DNA of 64,000 nucleotides, from contig OY755044.1 in assembly GCA_963576565.1 (NCBI GenBank), positions 43,032,735-43,096,734 of the forward strand. The letters are read 5' to 3'. The notes under the pieces were generated by a model, which made no database searches, was not told the DNA's origin, and saw only the letters and a program-made list of their open reading frames with translations. Origin of the DNA: Aspidapion aeneum (lineage: Eukaryota > Arthropoda > Insecta > Coleoptera > Brentidae). Shown piece by piece: positions 12,315 through 61,720 of this stretch. Made by a program: the position numbers and the translations under genes. Position 1 is the stretch's first letter. Each line of letters begins with the position of its first letter.

Positions 12315-12886
12315 AAAAATCTAAATAAATTTATTTTTTATGTTTAATCTTAATTATGTTTTTTATTACAATACCTAGGTACCTTAAGCAATAAAATCTC
12401 TACAGGTGATTTATAAATTCTGATGATATCTTTGGCAACACCACAATTTTTTTTGATAAATCTTTTAATGAACTTTCCTTCGCTGCTCCTGAGCATTTTA
12501 ATTTGTCGTTTGATCAGCCAACAAAAATAAAGTGGTAAAAATAATAAGCCTCATTAGCAACGAAGACAGTTTGAAATATGGCACAATCTCACCAAAAGCC
12601 ATCTGAAATTCCTTTATTAACGCTTCCATATGTTAAGCATGTGATTCAAGCCTACAAATGGACCGGATTACGCAACGCCATCGATTTTTTTTTGTCAAAG
12701 TTAGTACATTATAGTGTTTAATTTCAATTAAAAACGCCGACAGTTGATCTTTGGTGCCTTCCAAATAAAAATAATCTACCAATTCATGGGCACTACAGTT
12801 ACAACGTATCAAGAATTACCCGCTTTCAGCAAATTGTTTACCTGGAGCAGTTTTGTTAATTCTAAATAAATTGTCCACTTAATTCT

Positions 12887-14374
12887 ACATACCTGCTACC
12901 ACCACTTACAGATAAAAATACTCACTTAGTCACAACATCAGAGGAAAAAGCCAATATGCTGGCCAAAATCTTTTCCTGCAACTCAATCCTTACAGTGCCA
13001 AATGGAAAAACTCCACCGTTCATTGAAAGGGTTTCCCACAGTATGCCAGAGGTACCCTTTTGTTACAGAGAAATACGAAAATCCCTTAAAAAGTTGGATA
13101 CAAACAAAGCAATGGGTCCAGATGGCATTCCCGCGATAGTACTCAAAAATTGTGCTAACGAGCTCACCTCAACTTTCGCTAAATTATTCAATTTATCTTA
13201 CAGGCAAGGAGTATATCCATCATCATGGAAGTCTGCCGCAGTACAACCTATTCCAAAGAAAGGAAAAAAGACAGATCCGTTAAACTATAGACCAATTGCT
13301 CTACTTCCGGTGATATCAAAAGTAATGGAAAGAGTTGTGAACAATCACCTAACCAAGTACTTGGAAAAGTACAAAATTATCAACGACAAGCAATACGGAT
13401 TTCGAAAATATAGGTCAACTGGCGATTTACTTACATACGTCACTCACTTATGGCAAAAAGCGATTGAGTTACGGGGCGAAACAAGAACAATTGCCTTAGA
13501 TATATCTAAAGCATTCGATAAAGTCTGGCATGAAAATCTGCTCAACAAGCTCAAAGCAACGGGATTGTCGCCGAAACTTTGCACTTGGTTTGAAAGTTAC
13601 CTTAAGGATAGATCCATTTATGTTGCACTGGATGGCTGGAACTCCAACTCTTACTAAATAAATGCTGGTGTGCCACAGGAAGCAATCCTTTCGCCAACAC
13701 TTTTTCTAATTTACATAAATGACCTCATAGATAAAACAGTAAATCCACTTTATTGCTTTGCAGATGATGGCAATGTAGTCTCCATAGTCATATCACCCAC
13801 TCAGTGTCTATCCGCACGTGAATTCCTTTATCTTAGACTAACTCAAATATCGCAGATAAATAATGACCTGGAGATAATAGAGGACTGGGACAACAAAAAC
13901 CTTGTACAGTTCAACGCGCAGAAAACCCAAGCAGCCCTGTTTTCAAAAAAGTCCAGCACCGGTGAGCCAAACATCATGCTATCTGGAAGTGCTGTCACAT
14001 TGCAGAGCCAGTTGAACATCTTAGAAATCACAGCAGAGACCAACATGTCTTGGCACAGTCTCGTGGCAGATATAGCTAAAAGGGCGTCCCAAAAGCTTGG
14101 GGTGCTATTTCGTACAAGACATCTGTATACACCAAGCCAACTGCTGACACTCTACAAAGCCCAGATTTGACCAACTATGGAGTACTGCTCACATATATGG
14201 AGTGCGGCACCCAAACATACCTTAATGCTTTTGACCACCGTGCAAAAACGAGCTATCAATCTGATCAATGACCCCGCACTTACCCGTAGCTTGGATAGTC
14301 TCGAACATCGAAGAACTGTGGGCGATCTATCTCTTCTACAGGTATTATCACGGAAACCATCAATTTACTGTTAA
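12887..14374 (+). pseudogene. Jockey/CR1-like LINE reverse transcriptase, 5'-truncated, interrupted
   Basis: One frame (same phase throughout) encodes a non-LTR reverse transcriptase. Visible motifs are NKAMGPDGIPAIVLKN, the LNYRPIALLPVISKVMERVV block, QYGFRKYRSTGDLL, ALDISKAFDKVWH, a degraded GVPQEAILSP, INDL and the catalytic-type FADD at about 13760. The endonuclease region upstream is missing. In-frame stops occur at 13655-13657, 14168-14170 and 14372-14374, so this copy is dead. The C-terminal end of the same LINE continues after the BEL insertion at 22256. The clade is assigned by motif style only. Confidence 0.85.
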
Positions 14375-15845: not shown

Positions 15846-16205
15846 GCGTGCATAATAAATTTTGAAGGAAATTTAATTCTTAACTTGAGAATTTGTTTTC
15901 GTGTAAAGGCAGATAAATAGTTTTACCAAATTAAATGCTTTTGATTTGTAGGTATTTATTTTTAAATTTAATACATAGTAGGTACCTACTTATTTGAATT
16001 CGCGAGGCGAAGATAAAAAAACTTATACACAAGTTTTTTGTTATCATTAGTTTGCATCGGGTATTTTCTTTACTTTTGTGCGCTTATAGTTTGATTATTG
16101 TAATTAAACGTAGGACATTAATATTTATACAGGGTGTCCAAATTTTGATTTTTTTTTCAGTTTACCTAATTTTTGTCAATTATTTTTTGGATTTTTTTTT
16201 AAATC

Positions 16206-19200
16206 ATGTCTAGTTCGGATAAAATTTTAAAGGCTAAAGCCTTGCGCTATAGTGCGATTTCACAGCTAAATTTGATCATTGAATCCGCGACCCTCGCAAA
16301 AAATGACCCTGCCTATCACAGCGGCTTTAAAGTCAAATTTCGGACATTGTCAAAAATCAAAAAAGATTTTGAAAAGCACCATAATACTTTGTTGACGTTG
16401 GTAGCCTCTGATGAGGATCGCTTAGTAGTAGAAAACAAAGTGTTTATGGACTTTTGCAAACGCTGTGACGAGATTTCCACTATATTTTACGAACTTTTCG
16501 AACTACCCTTTGAAGATGGAGCGCTTTTGAGCAGTACGATAAATCCCATGGGCAGTCCCTGTGCCTCCACAGACCAGCATGGTTTACTGCCTAGGATAAA
16601 AATACCTCTTTTTCAAGGGGAATTTAAGGAGTTTCCAACCTTTTTGCAAGCCTTTAATGCTACCGTGCACAATAATAGGTCGCTGGGAAACTTTGAAAAA
16701 TTCAATTTGCTTTTTTCTAATTTAAAGGGCCCTGCCCTGGATGTCATTTCTGACATTCCTATCCTTGCTGAAAATTATTTAAATGCCTACCACACCTTGG
16801 TGGATAGGTATACAAATAAACGATTACAAGCTTACCTTCACTGGAAGGCAATTGAAGGCTTCTCTCCTCTTACTAAAGAGAATGCTACGAATTTGAGGAA
16901 TTTGCTTGATTGTTTTTCGAAAAACTTAAGTGCTTTAAAAGTCATGGGTTTTAAAACGGAGTTTTGGGATTATATTATGGCACAAATGCTCTTGGATAGG
17001 TTGGACCTAACCACGCGCAAGGCATTTGAGCAAAATTATTGCTCCAATGAGATCCCCTCTTATGATAAAATTCGTGCTTTTGTTTCTAGCCATTGCATTG
17101 CGTTGGAACAAATACAACAAACTCAAGATTACTTAAAAAATAAAGATTTGTCAATTTCAAGTCAGAAAAATCAAGCAAAGTTTCAAAATCGATCTGCTTT
17201 GTTTGCTAATACTCAGAGAGCCTCCAAAAATGCCTCCCAGTCTCCAAATGGCCAAAGTGGCTTAAATAATACTCCAAACCCTCAAAAATTTTGTTTTCTC
17301 TGTAAAAGTGGCGATCATATAATATACAGATGTCCTCATTTTTTGGCGAAAACTCCCCAGCAACGTTTTGAGATTGTTAAACAACATAAAGCGTGTGTCA
17401 ACTGTTTGGGCTCAAAGCATAATTTACCCCAGCAATGCAAATCAGAAAAAAGATGTTTACATTGTGGCCAATTTCATCACAGTCTCTTACATTTTTTTCC
17501 TATTAATTCTACACCTAGTTCTGCGAGTAGCCCCTCTACTTCTGCAGTGCAACCCCCGAGGAGCCCCGTGGCTACCGAATTTAATAGAACCACTAACACC
17601 ATTGTTACTGGTATGTCTTTAAATGATCGCGAAGTACTTCTCTGTACCGCTTTAATACAAATACAGGATGTTTTTCAAAATTGGCACACAGTGCGCGCCA
17701 TCTGTGACTCTGGTGCTCAATCTTCATTTATATCTAAGTCATGTGCTGATAGTTTGGGCCTTCCTAAATTTAATATCGCCATGACTCTACAAAGCTTAGA
17801 TCGAATGACAACTTCGGCAAAATCTGGAATTAATTGCAATATATCCTCTTTGCGTGATAATAATTTTGTTTTTAATTTTGATGCGATAATACTCGATAAA
17901 ATTTGTAGTGATTTACCTCATTCCTCATTTTCGATTAAAAGTTTTCCTTTTCTCGCCAACTTAGCACTAGCTGACCCAGGCTTTAATAAAAGCGATAAAA
18001 TTGATTTATTGTTGGGCGGCGATGTGTACCCTTACATTTTGCTAGATGGTCGTTTGTCTACGGGACCCAACAACCCCGTCTGCATTAATACTATTTTTGG
18101 TTGGGGAATAATGGGCAATCTTTCACTTTCACCTTCAACTACAAATCAAATTAAAACATTTTTTACTACGTCAATGAACGATTCTTTTGTCAATTTAGAT
18201 AAAAATCTACAACGATTTTGGCAAATAGATGACATACCTAATGTCAAGGCCATTGACCCCGAAGATGAGTTTTGCGAAAATTATTTTTTGAAAACTACCT
18301 CAAAAAATGAGGAGGGGAGATATATTGTATCTTTACCATTTAAAGTTACTGCTCCAGATTTTGGCGACACTCGATCCATTGCCGTACGTCGTTTTTTCTC
18401 CCTTGAGAAGAAATTGCTACAAAACCCTGATTTTTATGCTGCCTACAGCTCTGTTTTACAAGATTATTTAGATAATAATCATATGCAACCGGTTTCTGCA
18501 CCTTTGCCGACCGAAATTTCAAATCATTTTTATATTGCACACCATGCGGTGTTTAAAAAAGATTCTACTAGCACCCCCCTGAGGGTGGTTTTTGATGCGA
18601 GCATGCACGCCCCTGGCAAAATCTCGCTCAACAACGCTGTTTATACTGGGCCCCCTTTACAAAGGGACTTACAAAAAATTTTATTACTTTATCGTTTGCA
18701 TAAATTTTGCTTTTGTTGCGACATCCGTCAAATGTACAGGATGATTTTAGTTGACCCTAGTCAAACTAATTTTCAAAGAATAGTTTGGAGGTTTGATCCT
18801 AACCAGCCTATTCAAGACTTCGAAATAAATAGAGTTTTATTCGAGGTCTCTTGTAGCCCCTTTTTGGCTATCAGAACTTTGCTGCAACTTGCTAGAGAGC
18901 ATGAGGACCTTCCTCTTGCCTCAAAAATCATTGAGGAGGCAGTTTTTGTCGATGATGTGATTTCGGGAAGTGATGACTTTTTTAAGGCCACTGAGATGAA
19001 AAATCAATTAATCGAGCTACTTAGCCGAGGTGGATTCGAATTGCGTAAATGGGCGAGCAATTGTCCCGAGTTACTATCCGATCTTCCTGAGTCACACATT
19101 TCGATGAAGGCTCTTTCTCTCGATTTAGATGCTGAAAATTCAACTTTGAAAATTCTCGGTTTAAATTGGAACCCTCATACTGATGAATTTTTTTATACTT

Positions 19201-21497
19201 TCGACTGTTCTCTCCAAACATGCACTAAAAGAACAATTTTAAGTAATTTGGCCCGCATTTACGACCCTCTGTCTTTTTTGGCGCCAATAGTTTTAATTTT
19301 AAAATTAATTGTTCAATACTGCTGGGCAGAAGACTTAAACTGGGACGACCCTGTCAGTCCGGAAATTGTTTTTAAATGGGAAAAATTTAAAAATGAATTA
19401 AAGTTTTTGCATTCTGTTAAAATTCCTCGTCAAATAATTTTGCCTAATGCTAGTCAAATCCAGCTAGTAGGATTTTGCGATAGTTCAGAACGGGCCTATT
19501 GTGCTGTCGCTTATATTCGAATTTTTTATTCTGATGGAAACATTAAAGTTTTTTTTGTTTGTAGTAAATCTAGAGTCGCACCGTTGCGTCGTAAACTAAC
19601 TTTACCAAGACTAGAGCTTTTAGGAGCTGTTTTGTTGGCTAAATTAATGGATTTTTTACTAGAAACGTTCTCGGAAAAAATTAAATTTGATAAAATTCTT
19701 GCTTTTACTGATAGCACAGTGACCTTATCTTGGATTCAGGGATCTCCTCACAAATTTAAAACATTTGTTTCGAATAGAACTGCCTATATACAAGGAAGAA
19801 TTAGCCCTGAGTTTTGGCATTATGTTCCTACTGAACAAAATCCTGCTGACTGCGGTACTAGGGAAATGTATCCCTCTGATTTACAAAGATTTTATTTTTG
19901 GTTAGAAGGGCCTTCTTTTCTAAACCAACCTACAAATACTTGGGATTTTATGACAGTTACTTACGATGGGAATGCAGTTTTGGAAGAACAGCGAAAAAAT
20001 ATTTTTAACGTTTTTACTTGCGAACAAACAGTTGAATATTATGTAAACAACTTGTTTGAAAAATACAGTTCTCTTTTTAAAATTAAGAGAATAGTTGCTT
20101 ACTTTTTGCGAGGGTTACAAAAGTTTAAAAATCCCTCATACAATTTTGCTACTGATTACCTTACAAATCAGGATTACTACAAAAGCTTACTTTTTATTTC
20201 GAAATGCGTACAATCTTTTTCTTTCCAAAAAGAAATTGAATTACTAAAAGATAAGAAACAGCTTCCAAAAGCTTTTCAAAAATTATGTCCATTTTTGCAT
20301 AATGAAAGCTACGATTTGCTTCGTGTTGGAGGCCGTTTATGCCATTCAAATTTATCATACGATAAAAAATTTCCAATTCTTTTGCCTTCTAGTGCAAAAT
20401 TCACTGAATTACTGATTTTAGATTTGCATCGCAGCAATCTTCATTGTGGTATACAGACCACAACTTTTTTACTAATGCAAAACTTCTGGGTATTGTCTGC
20501 TAAAAAGGTAGTGAGAAAAGTTTTAAGTTCTTGCCATACTTGCTGGAAAACTAAACCTAACTCCCTTCAACCCCCTATGGGTAACCTACCGAAATTTAGA
20601 GTTTCCGAAGCAAAGGTGTTCGAAAATGTAGGTATAGATTTTTGTGGTCCGTTCACGATTACTCTTGGTCGGACCAGAGGTGCAAAAACCATGAAAGCAT
20701 ATGTCTGTTTATTTATCTGTTGCGCTGTTAAAGCCGTGCATTTAGAGTTAGTCTCTGATATGACATCAGAAGCCTTTCTGGCTGCTCTGCGCCGCTTCAT
20801 AGCTAGAAGAGGACTATGCTCAAAGATCTCTTCAGACTGCGGGACCAACTTCGTGGCCTCTGAAAAATACTTGCGACAAATTTTTTCTGATTGCGTGAAG
20901 GGGGAAGGTATAGTTTGGTCTTTTAACCCACCTGCTGCTCCCCACATGGGAGGCATTTGGGAATCAAACATTAAATCTTTAAAGACTCATCTTCACAGGG
21001 TAGTTGGAAATCAAATACTCACCTATGAGGAATTAAATACGGTTTTAACCCAAGTTGAAGCCATAATGAACTCACGTCCTTTATGTGCCTTAAGCACCGA
21101 TCCTATTGATCTGGCGGTCTTGACTCCTAATAATTTTTTAAATTTGAGGCCTCCAGGTACAATACCCGATCCAAACTACTGCGATATTGCGTTAAACAGG
21201 CTGTCCAGGTGGCAACTGTTGCAAAGAATGCACCGCGATTTTTGGATTCGCTGGCATCGCGAATATTTGCACACTTTGCAACAGCGAGCCAAATGGCACC
21301 AACCTCTTGCTTCCATTGATATTGGTACTATGGTACTGATCAAAGATGAAAATTCCACTCCATTGGATTGGCCCCTAGGCCGCATTGAAGACCTTATTAA
21401 AGGTTCTGATAATGTTCCACGGGTTGCTATTGTAAAGACTACTAAAGGTACCTACAAACGGCCTTTGGTAAAACTATGCGCCCTGCCTACAAATTAA
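16206..21497 (+). CDS. BEL/Pao gag-pol polyprotein, 1763 residues
   Basis: This single ORF encodes the proteins for retrotransposition in cytoplasmic particles followed by integration in the nucleus. In order: a DUF1759-type gag region (about 127-290, with IPLFQGEFKEFPTFLQAF); cysteine-rich zinc knuckles (about 362-440, CFLCKSGDH, CVNCLGSKH, CLHCGQFHH); an aspartic protease with CDSGAQSSFIS (about 498-510); a reverse transcriptase with VVFDASMHAPG (about 795) and catalytic FVDD (about 914); a Pao-type RNase H with GFCDSSERAY and LPRLELLGA (about 1088-1150) and FTDSTVTLSWIQG; an integrase zinc-binding HCGIQTT...CHTCW segment (about 1405-1445); an rve core with Asp in GIDFCGP, Asp in SDCGTNF and Glu in GGIWES (about 1477-1585); and a C-terminal DUF5641 domain (about 1663-1757). 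No stop or frameshift is present. The start follows a T-rich leader, and the first ATG of the frame is used. Confidence 0.97.
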   Translation: MSSSDKILKAKALRYSAISQLNLIIESATLAKNDPAYHSGFKVKFRTLSKIKKDFEKHHNTLLTLVASDEDRLVVENKVFMDFCKRCDEISTIFYELFELPFEDGALLSSTINPMGSPCASTDQHGLLPRIKIPLFQGEFKEFPTFLQAFNATVHNNRSLGNFEKFNLLFSNLKGPALDVISDIPILAENYLNAYHTLVDRYTNKRLQAYLHWKAIEGFSPLTKENATNLRNLLDCFSKNLSALKVMGFKTEFWDYIMAQMLLDRLDLTTRKAFEQNYCSNEIPSYDKIRAFVSSHCIALEQIQQTQDYLKNKDLSISSQKNQAKFQNRSALFANTQRASKNASQSPNGQSGLNNTPNPQKFCFLCKSGDHIIYRCPHFLAKTPQQRFEIVKQHKACVNCLGSKHNLPQQCKSEKRCLHCGQFHHSLLHFFPINSTPSSASSPSTSAVQPPRSPVATEFNRTTNTIVTGMSLNDREVLLCTALIQIQDVFQNWHTVRAICDSGAQSSFISKSCADSLGLPKFNIAMTLQSLDRMTTSAKSGINCNISSLRDNNFVFNFDAIILDKICSDLPHSSFSIKSFPFLANLALADPGFNKSDKIDLLLGGDVYPYILLDGRLSTGPNNPVCINTIFGWGIMGNLSLSPSTTNQIKTFFTTSMNDSFVNLDKNLQRFWQIDDIPNVKAIDPEDEFCENYFLKTTSKNEEGRYIVSLPFKVTAPDFGDTRSIAVRRFFSLEKKLLQNPDFYAAYSSVLQDYLDNNHMQPVSAPLPTEISNHFYIAHHAVFKKDSTSTPLRVVFDASMHAPGKISLNNAVYTGPPLQRDLQKILLLYRLHKFCFCCDIRQMYRMILVDPSQTNFQRIVWRFDPNQPIQDFEINRVLFEVSCSPFLAIRTLLQLAREHEDLPLASKIIEEAVFVDDVISGSDDFFKATEMKNQLIELLSRGGFELRKWASNCPELLSDLPESHISMKALSLDLDAENSTLKILGLNWNPHTDEFFYTFDCSLQTCTKRTILSNLARIYDPLSFLAPIVLILKLIVQYCWAEDLNWDDPVSPEIVFKWEKFKNELKFLHSVKIPRQIILPNASQIQLVGFCDSSERAYCAVAYIRIFYSDGNIKVFFVCSKSRVAPLRRKLTLPRLELLGAVLLAKLMDFLLETFSEKIKFDKILAFTDSTVTLSWIQGSPHKFKTFVSNRTAYIQGRISPEFWHYVPTEQNPADCGTREMYPSDLQRFYFWLEGPSFLNQPTNTWDFMTVTYDGNAVLEEQRKNIFNVFTCEQTVEYYVNNLFEKYSSLFKIKRIVAYFLRGLQKFKNPSYNFATDYLTNQDYYKSLLFISKCVQSFSFQKEIELLKDKKQLPKAFQKLCPFLHNESYDLLRVGGRLCHSNLSYDKKFPILLPSSAKFTELLILDLHRSNLHCGIQTTTFLLMQNFWVLSAKKVVRKVLSSCHTCWKTKPNSLQPPMGNLPKFRVSEAKVFENVGIDFCGPFTITLGRTRGAKTMKAYVCLFICCAVKAVHLELVSDMTSEAFLAALRRFIARRGLCSKISSDCGTNFVASEKYLRQIFSDCVKGEGIVWSFNPPAAPHMGGIWESNIKSLKTHLHRVVGNQILTYEELNTVLTQVEAIMNSRPLCALSTDPIDLAVLTPNNFLNLRPPGTIPDPNYCDIALNRLSRWQLLQRMHRDFWIRWHREYLHTLQQRAKWHQPLASIDIGTMVLIKDENSTPLDWPLGRIEDLIKGSDNVPRVAIVKTTKGTYKRPLVKLCALPTN

Positions 21498-35003: not shown

Positions 35004-36716
35004 ATGGAACCACTTTGCAACACACTTAATATGCCTCCAATCGTGCCTCAATTTACAGAACCACCTACGTTTGATCCGAAATGCAGTTGCCCCGTTAATT
35101 TTATAAACGAATACGACAGAATTTGTGACAAAAATTTTTGGCCAAACACATTCAAAATGAGATGTTTAAAGTCCTATTTGGAAAAGCCAGCAAATTTTTG
35201 GTACACAAGCTACACACAGACAAACTCAAACAAAAGTAAGACATGGGATGACGTCAAAACAGATTTTATAAACTATTTCGGTGGCAAATTTGCATATTAA
35301 AAATTCAGAGAACAGTTTAGGCAAAGAAAACAGTTATCCAATGAAAGCATTAAAAGCTACTATTTTTCACTATTATCTTTGTCAAATTTAATTAGTCCTA
35401 AAATAGAATTTCTCGATTTCTTAGAGGCATTTGAAGATGGAATTTTGAGGGAATTTTATGAAAATTTTAAAATTTTATGTACAAATAACATAACACAAGA
35501 CAAACTTAAAGACATTGTACTTTTGTTACAGCGAATCGCAGAAACAAAAGTGCAAAATTCATACGTATCGGATCAAAATTTTGAGGAGGATATAAACTTG
35601 TCGTATTTTAGTTCAAATTCAAATATCTTGCAAATCTAAGGTTCCATAAATCACCGAAAAAATTTAAATATTTTATTAGATAGCGGATCTTCACAAAACA
35701 TAATACATAAAAGTTTAGCTGGAAAAATTTTGAAAATTCAAGGGAATAGTAGATTATCTACAGCAGGCGGTCATTTTGTTAACCCATTAGGGAAAACAAA
35801 CATAGAAATCCAATTTGGCCATTTCAAACACAGGGTTTCTGCCCTGGTAGTGGAAGAACTACCAGTACCTCTAATTTTGGGTACTTCTTTTCTTAAACAA
35901 AGTAAAGTCATTATTGACTATTGCAATAGTAAGGTGACAATAGGGGAGGACTTTTCAGTTAATTTTTATAATTCGTATTCTGGTCCTTTAGACTCTTGCC
36001 TCTCCGTCACAGATAAATTTACTAAACGCAAATATGACAAGATTTTTTTGAAATCGCCAAAAATATTTTATTTAGGTCCAAATAAAACACTAAATATAAA
36101 AATTCCATGTGAATTTACAAGTCAGATTTTAAATAATTTTCCGAACTTTCAGTTTACTAAAGGCTTTAAAGCTAAGCATCTGGAATTAGTGTCACAACCA
36201 ACAATTTTAAAAGATGTTGTCCATTTTCAAATTTTATCCAGGCACCATAAGTTAGTAAAAATTTATAGGGGTGCAAATTTAGGCTTTTTTATTAAAAGTA
36301 ATAATCAAAATCTGTATTTTAAAAATAAAAAATCAAAGTCTCAAATTAATAGAAATACTTATATCAACAATCGTAATAATTTTCAAATAGGTAAGACATC
36401 AGCCAGTGACATTGGCCTCGAAAGGAAAACAAAACATTCACGAAATTTTTATCGTAATAACAAATATGAAATTTCACATTGTAATCAAAAATGCAGTCAA
36501 AATCCGTTGTTAAATATAAACAAGCAAAATGACCATTACCTGTCTCAAAATACATTAAATAATTTGGAATTTTCAGTTCAAAGGTTGTTCTCGACTTTTC
36601 AGAATAGTTCCTCAGAAAACTTATGTAACATGATTACTCAAGATGGCTATATTTATAACGATAATGATAACGATAGCAATATTGATGACGGCCAATATTC
36701 AGTGCGTCTTAACTAA
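35004..36716 (+). pseudogene. gag-protease of the gypsy-like element, two in-frame stops
   Basis: From the ATG at 35004 one frame runs to 36716 with only two breaks, TAA at 35298-35300 and TAA at 35637-35639, and no frameshift. The first part is a retrotransposon capsid-type gag (FINEYDRI, FKMRCLKSYLEKPANFWY, TWDDVKTDFINYF). After the second stop comes an aspartic protease with LLDSGSSQNIIHKS and VPLILGTSFL, the usual DSG and ILG pair of retropepsins. No CCHC zinc knuckle is seen between them. The tail is rich in Asn and Asp. The protein would form particles and process them, but this copy is broken at both domain edges. Whether the stops are damage or read-through sites cannot be told here. 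Confidence 0.8.
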
Positions 36717-39547: not shown

Positions 39548-42500
39548 GGGGGTACGGGGTAGACCTCGTCAGATGTCTATCAGGGGAAATGAATCGACCC
39601 CTGCCCTCCGTAGATTCCAGGTACTCTCTGACCCGGAGAGTTAGCACCTGTTTAGGGTCCCATTCCCAGGGTTACGGGAGAAGACCACATCGGTATAAAA
39701 GGCGGAGAGGATGGACCTCGGTACGGTGATCATAGCGCAGGTGGCAACCCTTTCTTTTAGGGATAGTATAAAAGAAGAAGATGCTGCCTTGTAGTACCGG
39801 CGTTGGAATCGTCAAAGGCTAGGGGAAGAAAACCTCGATCAAAAATCACCTGGTCCTCCAGGTTGGGGGTTGGGGCATTAGACTAACTCTCTGATACCCG
39901 GAAAAAACGTACACTGTTAAAAAACCCAATCAAACGCCTCGGAAAGAAATGAAAAACCTAAGACGAACCAAGCAAAGAAACAGGAATATGATTTTTGGTA
40001 CATGGAACGTACAAGGAATGAGTCGAAAAGTGAATGATATAGTCCATGAGTGCAGCAGAATGAAGGTTGACCTTGCTGTACTAACAGAAACGAAGAAGAA
40101 AGGAAAAGGATCTGAAAACCTAGGACAGTATGACCATTTCTATAGCGGAGTGGCAAAAGAAAAACATGCGCAACAAGGAGTATCTATTTTGGTCAACAAA
40201 AGATTTAGAAAATATATCACCAACTGGGAAGCAGTAAATGAACGGCTAATAAGAATGAATATCACAATAAAAGGAATGAGACTTACGATTTTTGGAATCT
40301 ATGCGTATAATGACGATGCAAATGTAGCCGTGAAAGACAATTTTTTTGAAGAAATCCACAATGAAATATCAGCAGTAAGTACATCTAGAGAAATTGTAAT
40401 ATTGGGAGATTTAAATAGTAGAACAGGTAACAGAGTAAATGATCTGACAGTTGGCCAATATGGAGAAGATGTTGTTAATGACAATGGAAACCGGCTTATC
40501 ACAGTATGTGAGCAATTAGACCTAAAAATCCAAAACGGTTTTTTCCAACATAAGAAAATACACAAATATACCTGGACCAAACCCTCACAAAACCTGAAAT
40601 CCGTCATTGATTATCTTATCACTAAACAAAAGACAAAACTAAAAATTCAAGATGTCAGAACAAAGCGTGGATCAACATGCGGAAGTGATCACTATTTTCT
40701 GGAGACCAAAATTCTCTTTCCTTATCAAGGCCGAAGCCTCCATCAACAAAATCTTGATGATACAGTGAATGAGGAAATTGATCACTGTCAATATAATCTA
40801 CTAAGCCTAGAACATGACAGCGTAAAAAACTTATACAAAAAGAGACTGAACGAAAAACTTAATTCAAGTTCAGGGGAAACCCCAGATGAGGAATACGAAT
40901 GTATCACATTAAGCATCCATCAAGCTGCAAAAGAAGCACTAGGATTAGTGGAAGAAACTCCTAAAAGAACAAAACCATACTGGTGGGATGCTGAGATTGA
41001 AAGTGAAATAGAGGAAAAAAGGAAATTATATCACACGTACTTATCCCAAAAGACAGATAGAAGCAGAGAAGAATACAAAATCGCGCAATCAAAGGTGAAA
41101 AGAATGATCAGTGATAAGAAGAATCAATCATGGATGCAAAAGTGTCAGAAAATAGATTCTTACTTAGGAGGTAGGAGAAGTACCAAAAGCTGGAAAACTA
41201 TAAGATCGATCAAAAAAGAAACATGCAGAGATATTATTTCACCAATACCAGACAAAGAATGGGATGAGCATTTTAAAAAACTTTTAACTGAAGATAGAGC
41301 AGAATTCAAGGAAGACGAAAGAGACAATATCATTAGAACGATGGGATCTCCAGTACCCCTCACAATATCTGAGGTCAAAAACGTGTGCAAAACCTTAAAA
41401 AGCGGTAAATCTGCCGGACCCGGAAATATCCCAGCGGAACTTATTAAATATGGCACTGAAGAATTGTTTTGTAGATTACGGAATCTTTTCCAAAGATATT
41501 TAAATGGAGCTGTAGTACCAACTGAGTGGAAAACGTCATATATATCCACAATACACAAAAAAGGAAGGAAAGATATATGTGACAATTATAGAGGTATATC
41601 TGTAACTAGTACGCTAAGCAGAATATATGGCAAAATAATAAGAAATAAAGTGGAGAGCGAATATAAAGATATGGAGGCAGAAGAACAAGCTGGTTTCAGG
41701 GCGGGTAGATCGACTTCAGATCATCTCTTTTGTATAACCCAAGTTATTGAAAAGAAAATGGCATACGGACAAGAGCTCCATCTGCTTTACGTAGATTTGC
41801 AGAAGGCATATGATAGTATACCACTAAATCTACTTTGGAAAGCGTTGGAAAAGACAAACATAAGCGTACAACTAATTAAGGCCATCAAAGAGTTATACCG
41901 CAATAGTAAGGCAAAAGTTAAAATAAAAGCAAAACTAACCAAAGGCTTTCAAGTAAATAAAGGTCTTAAACAAGGTTGCTGTATCTCGCCTACGCTCTTC
42001 AAGATATATTTGGAACAGGTCCTTAAAGTCTGGAAGAGAAAATGCCAAAACATGGGAATTCCGTTGAATGAAACCACCTTGTATACTTTATGTTTCGCCG
42101 ATGATCAGATAGTGGTGGCTCAGGATTATGACGACCTCGAATATATGACACGAAAACTAATAGACGAGTACAATAAGTGGGGACTAGAGGTTAATATCAA
42201 TAAGACAGAGTATATGTGTATTGGTGGAACGAAACAGGATCTAATCTTAAATACTGGGCAGCGAATTCAGTCCTGTGATGAGTATAAATACTTGGGTCTA
42301 AAAATTACAGCTGACGGAACACTAGACAAAGCTATAAAAGATAGAAACGTACAAGGAAGAAAAGCAATAACTTTATTAAATGGAATAATTTGGGACCAAA
42401 GTATATCAAAACATAACAAAAAGCTTATATATAACACCATTGTAAAAAGTATTATTACATACGGCTCAGAAGTATGGCCAATCAAAGATAGAACAGAAAA

Positions 42501-42872
42501 AATGCTTTCCGCTACGGAGATGGACTATTGGAGAAGAGCAGCAGGGAAATCAAAAAGAGAAAGAGTTACCAATCAAAGAATAAGAGAAATTATGACAGTG
42601 GGTGAACGTACTCTAGTGGATGATATAAGAACAAAACAACTGGTGTGGTACGGACATGTACAAAGAATGGATGATGGAAGACTACCTAAACAAATATTAC
42701 AATGGAAACCAACTGGCCGAAGAAAACGAGGAAGACCAAGGAGAAGCTGGAGAGAAGGAATAGATAGTGAAATAAGAATAAGAGGCCTAGATGATGAATT
42801 ATGGGCAAACAGAAACGAGTGGAGATTGGGTATCGGAAGACGTAGAACGTTGTGAAACCGATAAATATATAT
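39548..42872 (+). mobile_element. Full-length RTE-type LINE
   Basis: It is flanked by an exact 15-bp direct repeat, ATATATTTTGCCTAA, at 39533-39547 and 42873-42887. It starts with GGGGGTACGG, has a GC-rich 5' region of about 400 bp, one intact ORF, a very short 3' region and an AT-dinucleotide tail in place of a long poly(A). Short simple-repeat tails are typical of RTE elements. It is inserted in the gypsy interior and is the youngest layer of this nest. Confidence 0.93.
39949..42855 (+). CDS. RTE-type LINE polyprotein: endonuclease plus reverse transcriptase, 968 residues
   Basis: It nicks target DNA and copies its own RNA at the nick. The N-terminal apurinic-type endonuclease shows GTWNVQG (about 23-29), a TETKK glutamate (about 50), GDLNSRTG (about 153-160) and a GSDH active-site end (about 245-248). 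The reverse transcriptase follows, with KSAGPGNIPAELIKYG, NYRGISVTSTLSRIYGKI (about 546), EEQAGFRAGRST, LYVDLQKAYDSIP (about 614), GLKQGCCISPTLF and catalytic FADD (716-719). The C-terminal part has YKYLGLKIT, WYGHVQRMDDGR and a basic GRRKRGRPRRSW stretch. An in-frame TGA lies 14 codons before the chosen ATG, and no other ATG intervenes. There are no internal stops, so it may be active. Many insect genes annotated as craniofacial development protein 2-like are copies of such ORFs. Confidence 0.96.
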   Translation: MKNLRRTKQRNRNMIFGTWNVQGMSRKVNDIVHECSRMKVDLAVLTETKKKGKGSENLGQYDHFYSGVAKEKHAQQGVSILVNKRFRKYITNWEAVNERLIRMNITIKGMRLTIFGIYAYNDDANVAVKDNFFEEIHNEISAVSTSREIVILGDLNSRTGNRVNDLTVGQYGEDVVNDNGNRLITVCEQLDLKIQNGFFQHKKIHKYTWTKPSQNLKSVIDYLITKQKTKLKIQDVRTKRGSTCGSDHYFLETKILFPYQGRSLHQQNLDDTVNEEIDHCQYNLLSLEHDSVKNLYKKRLNEKLNSSSGETPDEEYECITLSIHQAAKEALGLVEETPKRTKPYWWDAEIESEIEEKRKLYHTYLSQKTDRSREEYKIAQSKVKRMISDKKNQSWMQKCQKIDSYLGGRRSTKSWKTIRSIKKETCRDIISPIPDKEWDEHFKKLLTEDRAEFKEDERDNIIRTMGSPVPLTISEVKNVCKTLKSGKSAGPGNIPAELIKYGTEELFCRLRNLFQRYLNGAVVPTEWKTSYISTIHKKGRKDICDNYRGISVTSTLSRIYGKIIRNKVESEYKDMEAEEQAGFRAGRSTSDHLFCITQVIEKKMAYGQELHLLYVDLQKAYDSIPLNLLWKALEKTNISVQLIKAIKELYRNSKAKVKIKAKLTKGFQVNKGLKQGCCISPTLFKIYLEQVLKVWKRKCQNMGIPLNETTLYTLCFADDQIVVAQDYDDLEYMTRKLIDEYNKWGLEVNINKTEYMCIGGTKQDLILNTGQRIQSCDEYKYLGLKITADGTLDKAIKDRNVQGRKAITLLNGIIWDQSISKHNKKLIYNTIVKSIITYGSEVWPIKDRTEKMLSATEMDYWRRAAGKSKRERVTNQRIREIMTVGERTLVDDIRTKQLVWYGHVQRMDDGRLPKQILQWKPTGRRKRGRPRRSWREGIDSEIRIRGLDDELWANRNEWRLGIGRRRTL

Positions 42873-46175: not shown

Positions 46176-46240
46176 TATAAACAACAAGTAAAATTAAAGA
46201 AAGAAAAATAAGAAAAAAGTTTTTGCTTCGGCCGGGACTC
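46176..46240 (-). repeat. 65-bp direct repeat, copy 1
   Basis: It matches 46576-46640 at an offset of exactly 400 bp with few differences. It covers the T-stem and acceptor half of the tRNA-like sequence and its downstream tail. Confidence 0.8.
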
Positions 46241-46295
46241 GAACCCGGGATCTCTTGCTCTGTACGCAAACATTCTAAACATTGAACTCCGAAGC
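46225..46295 (-). tRNA. tRNA-like sequence, probably a pseudogene or SINE head
   Basis: The minus strand folds as a 71-nt cloverleaf. The acceptor GCTTCGG pairs perfectly with CCGAAGC, and the T arm CCGGG-TTCGAGT-CCCGG is perfect. An anticodon stem TTTGC/GCAAG has a 7-nt loop GTACAGA, whose U33-like T gives anticodon ACA. The D arm is weak (GTTC/GAAT, loop without GG) and one linker base is missing. Six T's follow soon after the 3' end, as a polymerase III stop would. ACA is not a normal animal anticodon, so a functional gene is unlikely. Confidence 0.5.
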
Positions 46296-51272: not shown

Positions 51273-52246
51273 GGCAAAATATCCTTTGTAAAAACTCTCC
51301 AGTATTCCAGTGGATAGTATTCAAGTAAAACCTAGAAACCCTAGTAAATCTCAAGACTGGGTTGTGACACCTGCACTTCCAAAGTAACACTGACAATTCC
51401 CAGTAAGGATGTACCCAGCAAACATGCATTACAAAAAAGTACTTTTTAAGTACTGGCTTTCACTGCTGCCCATAACGGCAAAGTACTAAGTAGGAAGTAC
51501 TTAATTCGTATTGATTTGGAACAACGGCCTGCATCAGGCCAGCAAGTATATATTTTAGTGAAAAAACACTGTACTCTTAAAGTAATGCATTTTTTTTAAC
51601 TTCTTTGTACACAAAAGCATGTACTTTTAAAGCAATATATTTTCTTCGTATTACAAAGTAAATACAAACAAAAACTGAATTTTTATACATTTTTTTAAAA
51701 AAACCTGTACTTTTAAAGCATTGTATTTTATTAATTTTAGTAGTACAAAGAAACTACTTTTATTGTAAATATTGTAAGGACATTACGTCACTCACGTCTC
51801 ATATTTACGGAAGGAAATATTTGATCATTATATAAAGATCTTTAATATTTTCCTTTTCATATCAGATGATGATATTTCCAAGGATTATGGAACATTCCAC
51901 ATCAATTTAAAAATAAATAAAATCATTCACATTCTTAAGCTTGACATTCCTTAGTGTACCTGTAAAATGCTGACTAGTGTTTGCCATTTAGTGGCAAGGA
52001 CGGCAAACATCAACTTCTCAGTTTTTTTGTAAATATTTTATTTTCACAGTAAAATATTTAATTGTGTAAAACCACCAGAAACAACTACTCCGAGGGAAAA
52101 TACCCCTACCGGCATTGAATTATACTGATGGTTTGAGGCTTTCGTTGGGAACTTGTTAAAACTGTTTGGTTTTCACTTTCTCCAACGTCGATCACGAGGA
52201 TACGAGTGATCCCCGTCTGGAACACGTCCTGATAGTCAGGAAAAAA

Positions 52247-52294
52247 TGTTCCATGATGATGGCCCAAAAGGTTGAAACCGGTCCGGTCGTGGAT
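52247..52294 (+). ncRNA. Hammerhead ribozyme remnant at the inversion junction
   Basis: The GAAA...GTC part (to the cleavage-equivalent position 52288/52289) is conserved. The inversion breakpoint replaced the 5' strand: the core reads ATGATGA with A at the catalytic C3 position, stem II is weakened to GGCC/GGTT and stem I is lost. It is predicted inactive. Confidence 0.7.
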
Positions 52295-52520
52295 TGGCAT
52301 GGAACATTTTTTCCTGACTATCAGGACGTGTTCCAGACGGGGATCACTCGTATCCTCGTGATCGACGTTGGAGAAAGTGAAAACCAAACAGTTTTAACAA
52401 GTTCCCAACGAAAGCCTCAAACCATCAGTATAATTCAATGCCGGTAGGGGTATTTTCCCTCGGAGTAGTTGTTTCTGGTGGTTTCACACAACTTATGCTC
52501 TACACGGAGCTATCGCCTAC

Positions 52521-52568
52521 ATTCACCTGAGGATGGCCCAAAAGGTCGAAACCGGTCCGGTCGTGGAT
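52521..52568 (+). ncRNA. Type I hammerhead ribozyme 1
   Basis: Stem I is ATTCAC (52521-52526) pairing with GTGGAT (52563-52568), 6 bp with one G-U. The core is CTGAGGA (52527-52533). Stem II is GGCC/GGTC with loop CAAAA (52535-52547). GAAA is at 52548-52551. Stem III is ACCG/CGGT closed by a GTC loop. Cleavage is expected after the GTC-type C at 52562. One U (52534) lies between A9 and stem II, a departure from the classic core that I associate with Penelope-type variants. Confidence 0.8.
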
Positions 52569-52794
52569 TGGCATGGAACATTTGTTCCTGACTATCAGGA
52601 CGTGTTCCAGACGGGGATCACTCGTATCCTCGTGATCGACGTTGGAGAAAGTGAAAACCAAACAGTTTTAACAAGTTCCCAACGAAAGCCTCAAACCATC
52701 AGTATAATTCAATGCCGGTAGGGGTATTTTCCCTCGGAGTAGTTGTTTCTGGTGGTTTCACACAACTTATGCTCTACACGGAGCTATTGCCTAC

Positions 52795-52842
52795 ATTCAC
52801 CTGAGGATGGCCCAAAAGGTCGAAACCGGTCCGGTCGTGGAT
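52795..52842 (+). ncRNA. Type I hammerhead ribozyme 2
   Basis: It is identical in all core and stem bases to the first, with CTGAGGA at 52801-52807, GAAA at 52822-52825 and predicted cleavage after 52836. The 274-nt spacing to the previous site defines the RNA monomer. Confidence 0.8.
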
Positions 52843-53443
52843 TGGCATGGAACATTTTTTCCTGACTATCAGGACGTGTTCCAGACGGGGATCACTCGTA
52901 TCCTCGTGATCGACGTTGGAGAAAGTGAAAACCAAACAGTTTTAAAATATTTAATATTTTTGTACTAAAATAAAGTGCTTTAAAAGCAACTGTTTAAAAA
53001 TACTTTTAAAATGTTTTTTCACTGTTATATTAATTTTGCAGTAAAACTTTTAAACTTTTAATAATAAATTAAATGTACTTTAAGAGTACCTTCTTCAAAA
53101 TGTTATTAAAATGTTTTTTTGTGAATATTTTATTTTCACAGCAAAATATTTAATTGTTTTGTACTAAAATAAAGTGCTTGAAAAGCAACTGTTTAAATAT
53201 ACTTTTAAAATGTTTTTTGGCCATTAGCCCTGGCTGCACTTGTCATTCTTTAAAAATAAAGTATAACTTTTCGTTGTATTAAAAATAAAGTACTAAAATG
53301 TTGCGTTTTTTGTACTTTTAAATAATATGCAAATTAGACAATACAAAAATAATAAAAATAATGCACATCGTTGCCGATGCCAGCAGTTGCCAGCAGTTAA
53401 AGTACAATATTAGTAAAGTACCAGCAGGTCGATGTTTGCTGGG

Positions 53444-60284: not shown

Positions 60285-61720
60285 TACTTAAATTTTTGAG
60301 GTTTTTTAATTTTTTTCCATGGTTTTATCGTAGTTCCTAACAGCCTTTCAAAGCTCAGCTCTCTAGCGTTTCTGAAAGTGCACAATGTTACTTTTACATA
60401 ACTTGACATGTATAGGGGAGGGAAATAAATTAAAATTGTCGTGTTTTAAAAATTTTTTCCATGGTTTTATCATAATTTCTATCAGCATTCCAATGCTCAG
60501 CTTTCTAGCGTTTCTGGAAGTAGGCAATGTTATTTTTATATAAGTTTACATTTATAGGAGAGGGAAGTAAATTAAAATGTTTTGGGAAATAAATTAAAAT
60601 TGTCGTGTTTCTAAATTTTGTCCTATAGTTTTATCATAGTTCCTATCAGTTTTCCAATGCTCAGCTCTCTAGCGTTTCTGGAAGTGGGTAATGTTACTTT
60701 TACATAACTTTACATTTATAGGGGAGGAGAGTAAATGAAAATATTGGACTTTAATTACTTACTTAAATTTTTGAGGTTTTTTAATTTTTTTCCATGGTTT
60801 TATCGTAGTTTCTATCAGCCTTCCAAAGCTCAGCTCTCTAGCGTTTCTGAAAGTGCACAATGTTACTTTTACATAACTTTACATGTATAGGGGAGGGAAA
60901 AAATTAAAATTGTCGTGTTTTAAAAATTTTTTCCATGATTTTATCATAATTTCTATCAGCATTCCAATGCTCAGCTTTCTAGCGTTTCTGGAAGTAGGCA
61001 ATGTTATTTTTATATAAGTGTACATTTATAGGAGAGGGAAGTAAATTAAAATGTTGATGTTTTTAAATTTTTGTCATATAGTTTTATCATATTGTCTTTC
61101 AGTCTTAAAAAGTTCAGCTCTCTAGCGTTTCTGGAAGTGGGCAGTGTTACTTTTACATAATTTACATTTATAGGGGAAAGAAGTAAATTAGAATTTTGGG
61201 CTGTTTTAATTTTTTTCTATAACTTTATCATAGTTACTATCGGTCTTCCAAAGCTCAGCTCTCTAGCATGTCTGGAAGTAGGCAATGTTACTTTTACTTA
61301 ACTTTAAATTTATAGGGGAGGGAAGTAAATTAGAATTTTGGGGTGTTTTAGTTTTTTCCTATAGTTTTATCATAGTTCCTATCAGTCTGCCAAAGCTCAA
61401 CTCTCTAGCATTTCTGGAAGTGGGCAATGCTACTTTTACATAAGTTTAAATGTATAGGGGAGGGGAGTAAATTAAAATTTTGGGTTTTTTTTTATTTTTT
61501 CCTATAGTTTTATCATAGTTCCTATCAGACTGCCAAAGCTCAACTCTCTAGCATTTCTGGAAGTGGGCGATGCTACTTTTACATAACTTTAAATTTATAA
61601 GGGAGGGGAGTAAATTAAAATTTTGGGGTTTTTTGATTTTTTCCAGGGGTTTGGTCATAATTTCTATCAGTCTGCCAAATTTCAGCTTTGTAGCATGTCT
61701 GGAAGTACAGTAGAATATTG
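60285..61720 (+). repeat. ~142-bp satellite, about ten copies
   Basis: Units share GTTTTATCATAGTT-like, CCAAAGCTCAGCTCTCTAGC, TTCTGGAAGTGGGCAATG and CATTTATAGGGGAGG phrases. Starts fall near 60318, 60459, 60613, 60790, 60931, 61074, 61216, 61358, 61501 and 61643. The block at 60285-60590 recurs at about 60757-61060, a higher-order duplication of roughly 472 bp. Confidence 0.9.

Follow-up and report, generated by a model that had tools for sequence, protein, structure and literature searches.

Metazoan retrozymes lacking long terminal repeats (LTRs) are non-coding elements with a type I hammerhead ribozyme of complete core, found as many-copy tandem repeats of ~150–450 bp with a GC content below 50% and target-site duplications longer than 4 bp, in genomes that also harbor Penelope-like elements (PLEs) (PMC7229834). 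RNA circles formed by monomer ligation have been shown for other animal retrozymes, and PLEs are a strong candidate for mobilizing them, although this is not demonstrated (PMC7229834); both the enzyme and the use of RNA circles as template are proposals so far (PMC7229834, PMC11722881). The LTR retrozymes of plants, as described in PMC7229834, are likewise non-autonomous, ribozyme-bounded and thought to move by RNA circles, but have type III hammerheads, LTRs and 4-bp duplications. Here we describe an element of the beetle Aspidapion aeneum, represented by an insert at positions 52063–52942 of a 64,000-nucleotide stretch of contig OY755044.1 (the window). It has a type I hammerhead with a complete core, though with an Rfam score below gathering, a 274-nt unit with 47% GC, 12–13 bp duplications in the window and 4042 ribozyme matches in a genome that also contains PLEs. 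RNA was shown for the metazoan elements of PMC7229834, whereas this family is known from DNA sequence alone. By these features it would be classed as a metazoan non-LTR retrozyme, and it appears to insert as Penelope does. We consider it probable that the RNA of this beetle family forms circles, which Penelope-type machinery copies into DNA from both strands of the target.

The insert has a tandem period of 274 (98% matches in Tandem Repeats Finder), numbered here from the first base 3' of the cleavage site, and occupies the same span that an earlier note on this window had given for a retrozyme-like array. Its joined flanks align without gaps to an empty site in the same window (82 positions, 5 mismatches), and the 13-bp repeats together with this paralogous site point to a single event: 52063–52942 is one retro-insertion flanked by 12–13 bp duplications (Table 1). 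The earlier note had recognized the direct hammerhead units but neither the arm in inverted orientation nor the fixity of the ends, and the parallel with Penelope had escaped it.

The retrozyme-like hammerhead array is confirmed. As the earlier note had described, there are two complete type I hammerheads with all core bases, and these 48-nt folds are identical, with cores CTGAGGA / GAAA / GTC, a 6-bp stem I, a 4-bp stem III and cleavage sites 274 nt apart. The broken third core that it placed at 52247 is also real, the direct arm beginning inside the core at unit 240. A loose hammerhead regular expression has three further matches elsewhere in the window, so the fold alone is weak evidence. 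Strong evidence comes from genome-wide copy number: a 32-nt ribozyme pattern with at most 2 mismatches matches 4042 times in the 1.29-Gb genome, and its reversed control not at all. The outcome for which the earlier note had allowed, a single-copy unit without any covariance-model match, is not what is seen, and the genome search that it proposed shows a multi-copy element. Ribozyme pairing is kept in 97.4% of cells across 47 copies. RNA of the array may be cut into 274-nt monomers by the type I hammerheads.

Stem III occurs in two forms. Arrays L049, L050, L051 and L053 lack one CCGGT copy and fold as A-CCGG-U, a one-pair stem III with a palindromic loop resembling HHR_Amex1 of the newt and axolotl satellite retrozymes, which has one pair and a palindromic tetraloop (PMC7229834). 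The remaining arrays carry CCGGT twice and differ from the newt and axolotl form in their 4-bp stem III. Duplication or loss of 5 nt thereby toggles stem III between these states inside one genome.

Table 1. Features of the insert and its surroundings (window coordinates)
Feature	Position	Strand	Details
Left target-site duplication	52050..52062	.	TAAAATATTTAAT, 12–13 bp; exact repeat at 52943–52955
Inverted arm	52062..52255	-	194 nt, unit 203 back to 10; outer end is the element 3' end at site B (..CACACAA)
Direct arm	52254..52945	+	2.53 units, unit 240 to 109; outer end is the element 3' end at site A (..CAGTTTTAA)
Truncated hammerhead	52254..52294	+	direct arm starts within CUGA, so that the 5' strand of stem I is absent; stem II has a C to T change
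Intact type I hammerhead	52511..52582	+	core 52521–52568, cleavage 52562/52563
Complete monomer	52563..52836	+	274 nt, GC 47%; spans two cleavage sites; putative RNA product
Site-A hairpin	52654..52670	+	AAAAC-CAAACA-GTTTT; fixed-to-singleton ratio lowest among larger regions compared
Site B	52754..52765	+	GGTTTCACACAA; proposed second reverse-transcription start
Intact type I hammerhead	52785..52856	+	core 52795–52842, cleavage 52836/52837
Right target-site duplication	52943..52955	.	repeat of 52050–52062
Paralogous empty site	53113..53194	.	adjoining copy of ~100-bp AT-rich repeat

The ends of the family's arrays are fixed. The best 40 scored of 120 candidates, i.e. the closest copies, yielded 34 arrays; L044 extends past both ends of the sequence examined, leaving 33 arrays with 48 arms. 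Element 3' ends fall at site A (unit 103–115) in 25 arms, at site B (unit 197–211) in 17 and elsewhere in 6, a clustering with a chance of 1.6e-35 for windows that were chosen after the ends had been seen. Eighteen of the 25 A ends lie at unit 108–109 and 8 of the 17 B ends exactly at 203, with the terminal sequences of Table 1, and 5' ends are scattered. All 15 bidirectional arrays are tail-out (minus-left/plus-right), and 13 of them pair one A with one B end; two have neither (L034, L042), and A/A and B/B pairs are absent (all-mixed chance 7.9e-4 for the 13 pairs). The 18 unidirectional arrays end at A (12), at B (4) or elsewhere (2). These counts include minus arms of L026 and L051 read across an interruption and a degenerate A end in L053. 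Duplications scoring at least 9 flank 11 of the 15 bidirectional arrays (that of L037 with 2 mismatches), the best score among 60 mismatched control pairings being 6.8, and exact duplications of 9–15 bp occur in 11 arrays besides that of the window. A twelfth scoring duplication, in L034, was dropped as a microsatellite artefact.

The pairing rule also holds in part out of sample. Among 100 listed exact pattern matches (all on C1) of the 4042, ten neighboring opposite-strand pairs lie less than 3 kb apart, all minus-left/plus-right, and nine were analyzed against a prediction fixed beforehand: one A end, one B end and a duplication of 9–15 bp. Five of the nine are A/B with duplications: L087 and L091 (12 bp each), L089 (14 bp), L088 (15 bp with 1 mismatch) and L086, which exceeds the prediction with an 18-bp duplication (1 mismatch) and has its B end at 195, 2 nt short of the B window. 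None of the nine is A/A or B/B, and the pooled all-mixed chance is 2.9e-5 for 18 pairs, or 5.6e-5 for 17 with L086 dropped.

Three arrays (L012, L054+L022, L036; between arms) show (TTCGG)n following the 3' end of the complementary DNA (cDNA), G-rich strand outward, among 65 arm 5' ends with L044 excluded. The placement looks as telomerase-type addition would leave it, and TTCGG serves as the telomere motif in one earwig (PMC11829193).

The PLEs of the same genome have a closely similar anatomy. A PLE is defined by an open reading frame with reverse transcriptase (RT) and GIY-YIG endonuclease, and the retrozyme unit has neither. Of 13241 candidates for a PLE query, 78 copies were scored, and open frames of 838–842 aa are present in many of these. 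GIY-YIG matches are plentiful, with 91 among 150 scored of 633 candidates; RVT_1 and GIY-YIG domains were confirmed on L059, a copy with ~1-kb inverted flanks, and no match was found for the PLE protein among solved structures. Neighbors less than 10 kb apart among the 78 listed copies form 14 minus-left/plus-right pairs, none of the opposite orientation and 7 on the same strand. Six copies, 4 minus and 2 plus, make up the C6 array with a period of 3132–3133 bp; their 3' ends lie at units 2303 and 2344. Across 800 nt of this young family, the array's 6 copies show 1 array-private fixed change, 6 singletons and 2 subset changes relative to 4 copies elsewhere.

Exact duplications of 12–15 bp were found in 8 of 9 PLE arrays tested, and in 8 of 9 one end is longer by 20–38 nt as aligned (41 nt in C6; 20–42 overall). 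For the ninth array, C4:66.09, the stretches examined stop short of the array ends. This duplication test allowed for alignment overshoot and included 56 mismatched control pairings (no more than 8 bp in 55, 11 bp in one), superseding a first pass without these that had given 9–14 bp in 6 of 9 arrays; the duplication of C134 abuts an ATT microsatellite. Within one PLE family, short and long ends each fall on an identical sequence at several loci (C2:147.07, C4:58.85, C7:41.2), as they do at two loci of a second (C134, C9:27.14). Tail-out insertion with an alternative 3' end on each side is common to the retrozyme (13/15, and 5/9 out of sample) and the PLEs (8/9). Head-to-head inverted and direct copies, short duplications and AT-rich targets are shared with PLEs described elsewhere, as are the optional 3' 'tail' on one inverted repeat and two internal RT starts with extension of both strands (PMC3846280, PMC11167929); in vitro, a PLE protein initiates RT at two internal positions, with extension of both strands (PMC11167929).

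The PLE pseudo-LTRs contain hammerhead-like motifs ending GAAACGTC or GAAACGTT, and in three measured arrays the two PLE ends are found 54–63 and 88–95 nt beyond the cleavage site. The known PLE hammerhead is of minimal form, whereas most retrozyme copies have a full stem III. The motifs of L068, L070, L072, L074, L076, L080 and L082 have TTGAAAA in place of the expected CUGANGA, a possibly compensatory exchange of the C3-G8 pair for U3 and A8; copies L062–L064 retain CTGAAGA.

From the observed array shape and ends we infer the following enzyme and template. Array transcripts would be cut by the type I hammerheads into 274-nt monomers, as the folds and their selection suggest, and, as in other animal retrozymes (PMC7229834), the monomers would be ligated into circles. 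AT-rich DNA may then be broken with a stagger of 12–15 nt by a Penelope-like RT/GIY-YIG protein. One target 3' end would prime copying at site A (unit ~109), and site B (unit ~203) would be the start for the other. Copying would proceed round the circle for less than one lap in some cases and for up to about 21 laps in others, and joining of the two cDNA ends would leave the arrangement seen in the window, an inverted tail-out array flanked by short duplications. Whether a single RNA circle, bound by a dimeric Penelope-type RT, underlies each bidirectional insertion we regard as an evenly balanced question; the two subunits would extend opposite broken strands from sites A and B, rolling round the same circle. 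If general, such a rule would explain inverted, tandem and 'tailed' Penelope copies and give PLE hammerheads a role. The copies described here bear on both enzyme and template through their fixed starts, the end-pairing rule, single-unit ancestry and PLE-like anatomy in the same genome, and the signature can be checked in any genome with retrozymes. The kind of element is already known. The sections of PMC7229834 consulted make no mention of tail-out inverted arrays or of two fixed 3' ends, and no two-site, two-strand signature for retrozymes was found in the open-licence literature searched, supplementary files aside.

Several observations weigh against this interpretation. At gathering score, the Rfam scan of the window returned a single match, a tRNA, and no hammerhead. 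The covariance-model scan proposed in the earlier note does find Hammerhead_HH9 over 52000–53000 (31.2 bits, E 1.2e-5; 27.5 bits, E 1.7e-4), yet below the cut-off of 52; the third core reaches 13.5 bits (E 5.9). An unpaired extra U between CUGANGA and stem II is an inserted base in the Rfam alignment. No compensatory base changes occur in the ribozyme among the 47 copies, which are too alike, so covariation is uninformative, and an Rfam scan of PLE unit L066 at E 10 gave no hammerhead. The likeness of site A to PLE start regions is suggestive only (permutation p 0.007, 0.017, 0.053 and 0.69 in four families), RT starts are 94 nt apart in the retrozyme versus 20–42 nt in the PLEs, and in PMC11167929 the choice of RT start did not differ by strand, in contrast to the A/B rule. 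Conservation is lacking at site B (31 fixed to 54 singleton variants). Sixteen of the 18 unidirectional arrays lack a duplication scoring at least 9, and only two have one. Four of the nine out-of-sample loci misfit: L085 has one A end, a degenerate end at 213 and no duplication, L090 pairs a B end with one at 249, the ends of L092 are at 188 and 67, and L093 is probably two insertions. Between arms of one array, 34 + 37 consensus departures are confined to one arm, many in short or old arms, and of seven array-private variants covered by both arms, five are in both and two in one only. The survey sampled the closest copies, and the anatomy comparison set comprised PLEs of the same genome.

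Selection was gauged by comparing variants fixed in a whole array with singletons in one unit. The fixed/singleton ratio is 0/50 at the 13 ribozyme core sites (p 1.2e-4 versus the rest), 3/11 at the free core position N7, 4/99 in stems I and II, 1/82 at site A (p 5e-6 versus the rest) and 129/585 at the remaining 153 sites. Subfamilies make fixed changes non-independent, so these p-values are rough; the ribozyme core and site A are nonetheless spared by array-level changes.

Variation within arrays bears on the template. A linear multimeric array transcript could replace the circle, leaving the element and its ends the same and ribozyme cutting incidental. In vitro, a PLE protein accepts uncleaved RNA, and insertion proceeds despite ribozyme mutations (PMC11167929); a linear template is also favored by the arm-confined departures and by 183 variants common to subsets of units within arrays. 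A multimer would, however, pass on its parent's unit-to-unit differences, and the uniformity of the arrays counts against it: 15 of 19 variants fixed in a single array only occur in all units that span the position, the two arms of an array have 74 variants in common versus a shuffled mean of 27 and a maximum of 60 in 2000 shuffles, and the two arms of L032 show 9 fixed variants and 3 singletons but 0 subset variants. Sharing by subsets is most frequent in large arrays (73 of the 183 in L056+L033+L057), which fits later amplification, and the sparing of the core also argues against incidental cutting. We therefore judge a linear template unlikely. The 224 unit junctions that read through the cleavage site show no excess of indels (13/1359 versus 522/57634 elsewhere), and the longest arm has 20.8 units. 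Array-specific variants, arm sharing and junctions without excess indels suggest that one unit seeds each array; as the simplest such template, it is probably a closed circle.

Mobilization by a LINE (long interspersed nuclear element), through ordinary target-primed reverse transcription with twin priming, is improbable. Twin priming yields 5' inversions and duplications, and a frame with endonuclease and RT is present in the window (39895–42855), but twin priming uses arbitrary internal sites and here both outer ends lie at two fixed ones. Moreover, the array flanks examined share no common poly-A tail, and the two-ended pattern recurs in PLEs of this genome, the elements to which the comparison extended. 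Self-priming of an antisense template or a cDNA hairpin, as PMC3846280 proposes for PLEs, would account for inverted arms, and palindromic junctions are frequent among the inverted PLE copies of rotifers (PMC3846280). It predicts mirror-image ends (A/A or B/B), however, which are found in 0 of 18 classified pairs, and the unit positions at which the two arms join differ (in the window, for instance, 10 and 240), making it very improbable. An ordinary satellite spread by unequal exchange or DNA circles with the hammerhead as passenger is hardly credible, secondary amplification in large arrays (L035 repeats every 4 units) notwithstanding, since it is contradicted by the target-site duplications, the empty site, the fixed ends, the uniform polarity and the array-level sparing of the ribozyme core.

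The unit does contain a reading frame, contrary to the earlier note: an ATG frame of 62 aa at 52533–52721, open in 27 of 34 array consensi. It was rejected as coding, showing no purifying selection. The earlier note's retrozyme interpretation is supported, and its view of a non-autonomous retroelement that needs a foreign RT agrees with the multi-copy state, the duplications, the spared ribozyme core and this unselected frame as the only one.

The window contains several other elements. A tandem array at 60311–61706, with units of 142–164 bp, by eye resembles repeats flanking arrays L031 and L042. A BEL/Pao polyprotein frame of 1764 aa lies at 16203–21497, the LINE frame named above at 39895–42855, an RT split over two frames at 12866–14170 and a frame of a retroviral-type protease at 35640–36716. 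The tRNA-like match at 46224–46295 on the minus strand (49 bits in Rfam, not called by ARAGORN) is perhaps the head of a short interspersed nuclear element. The assembly's COX1, read in the mitochondrial code, shares 94–95% identity with its two best matches, both filed under Curculionoidea, so that its host is probably a weevil. Elsewhere, G000:C73:4559-5896 has a COX1 frame free of internal stops, versus copies with 11 TGA, and perhaps belongs to a bacterial symbiont or a contaminant contig.
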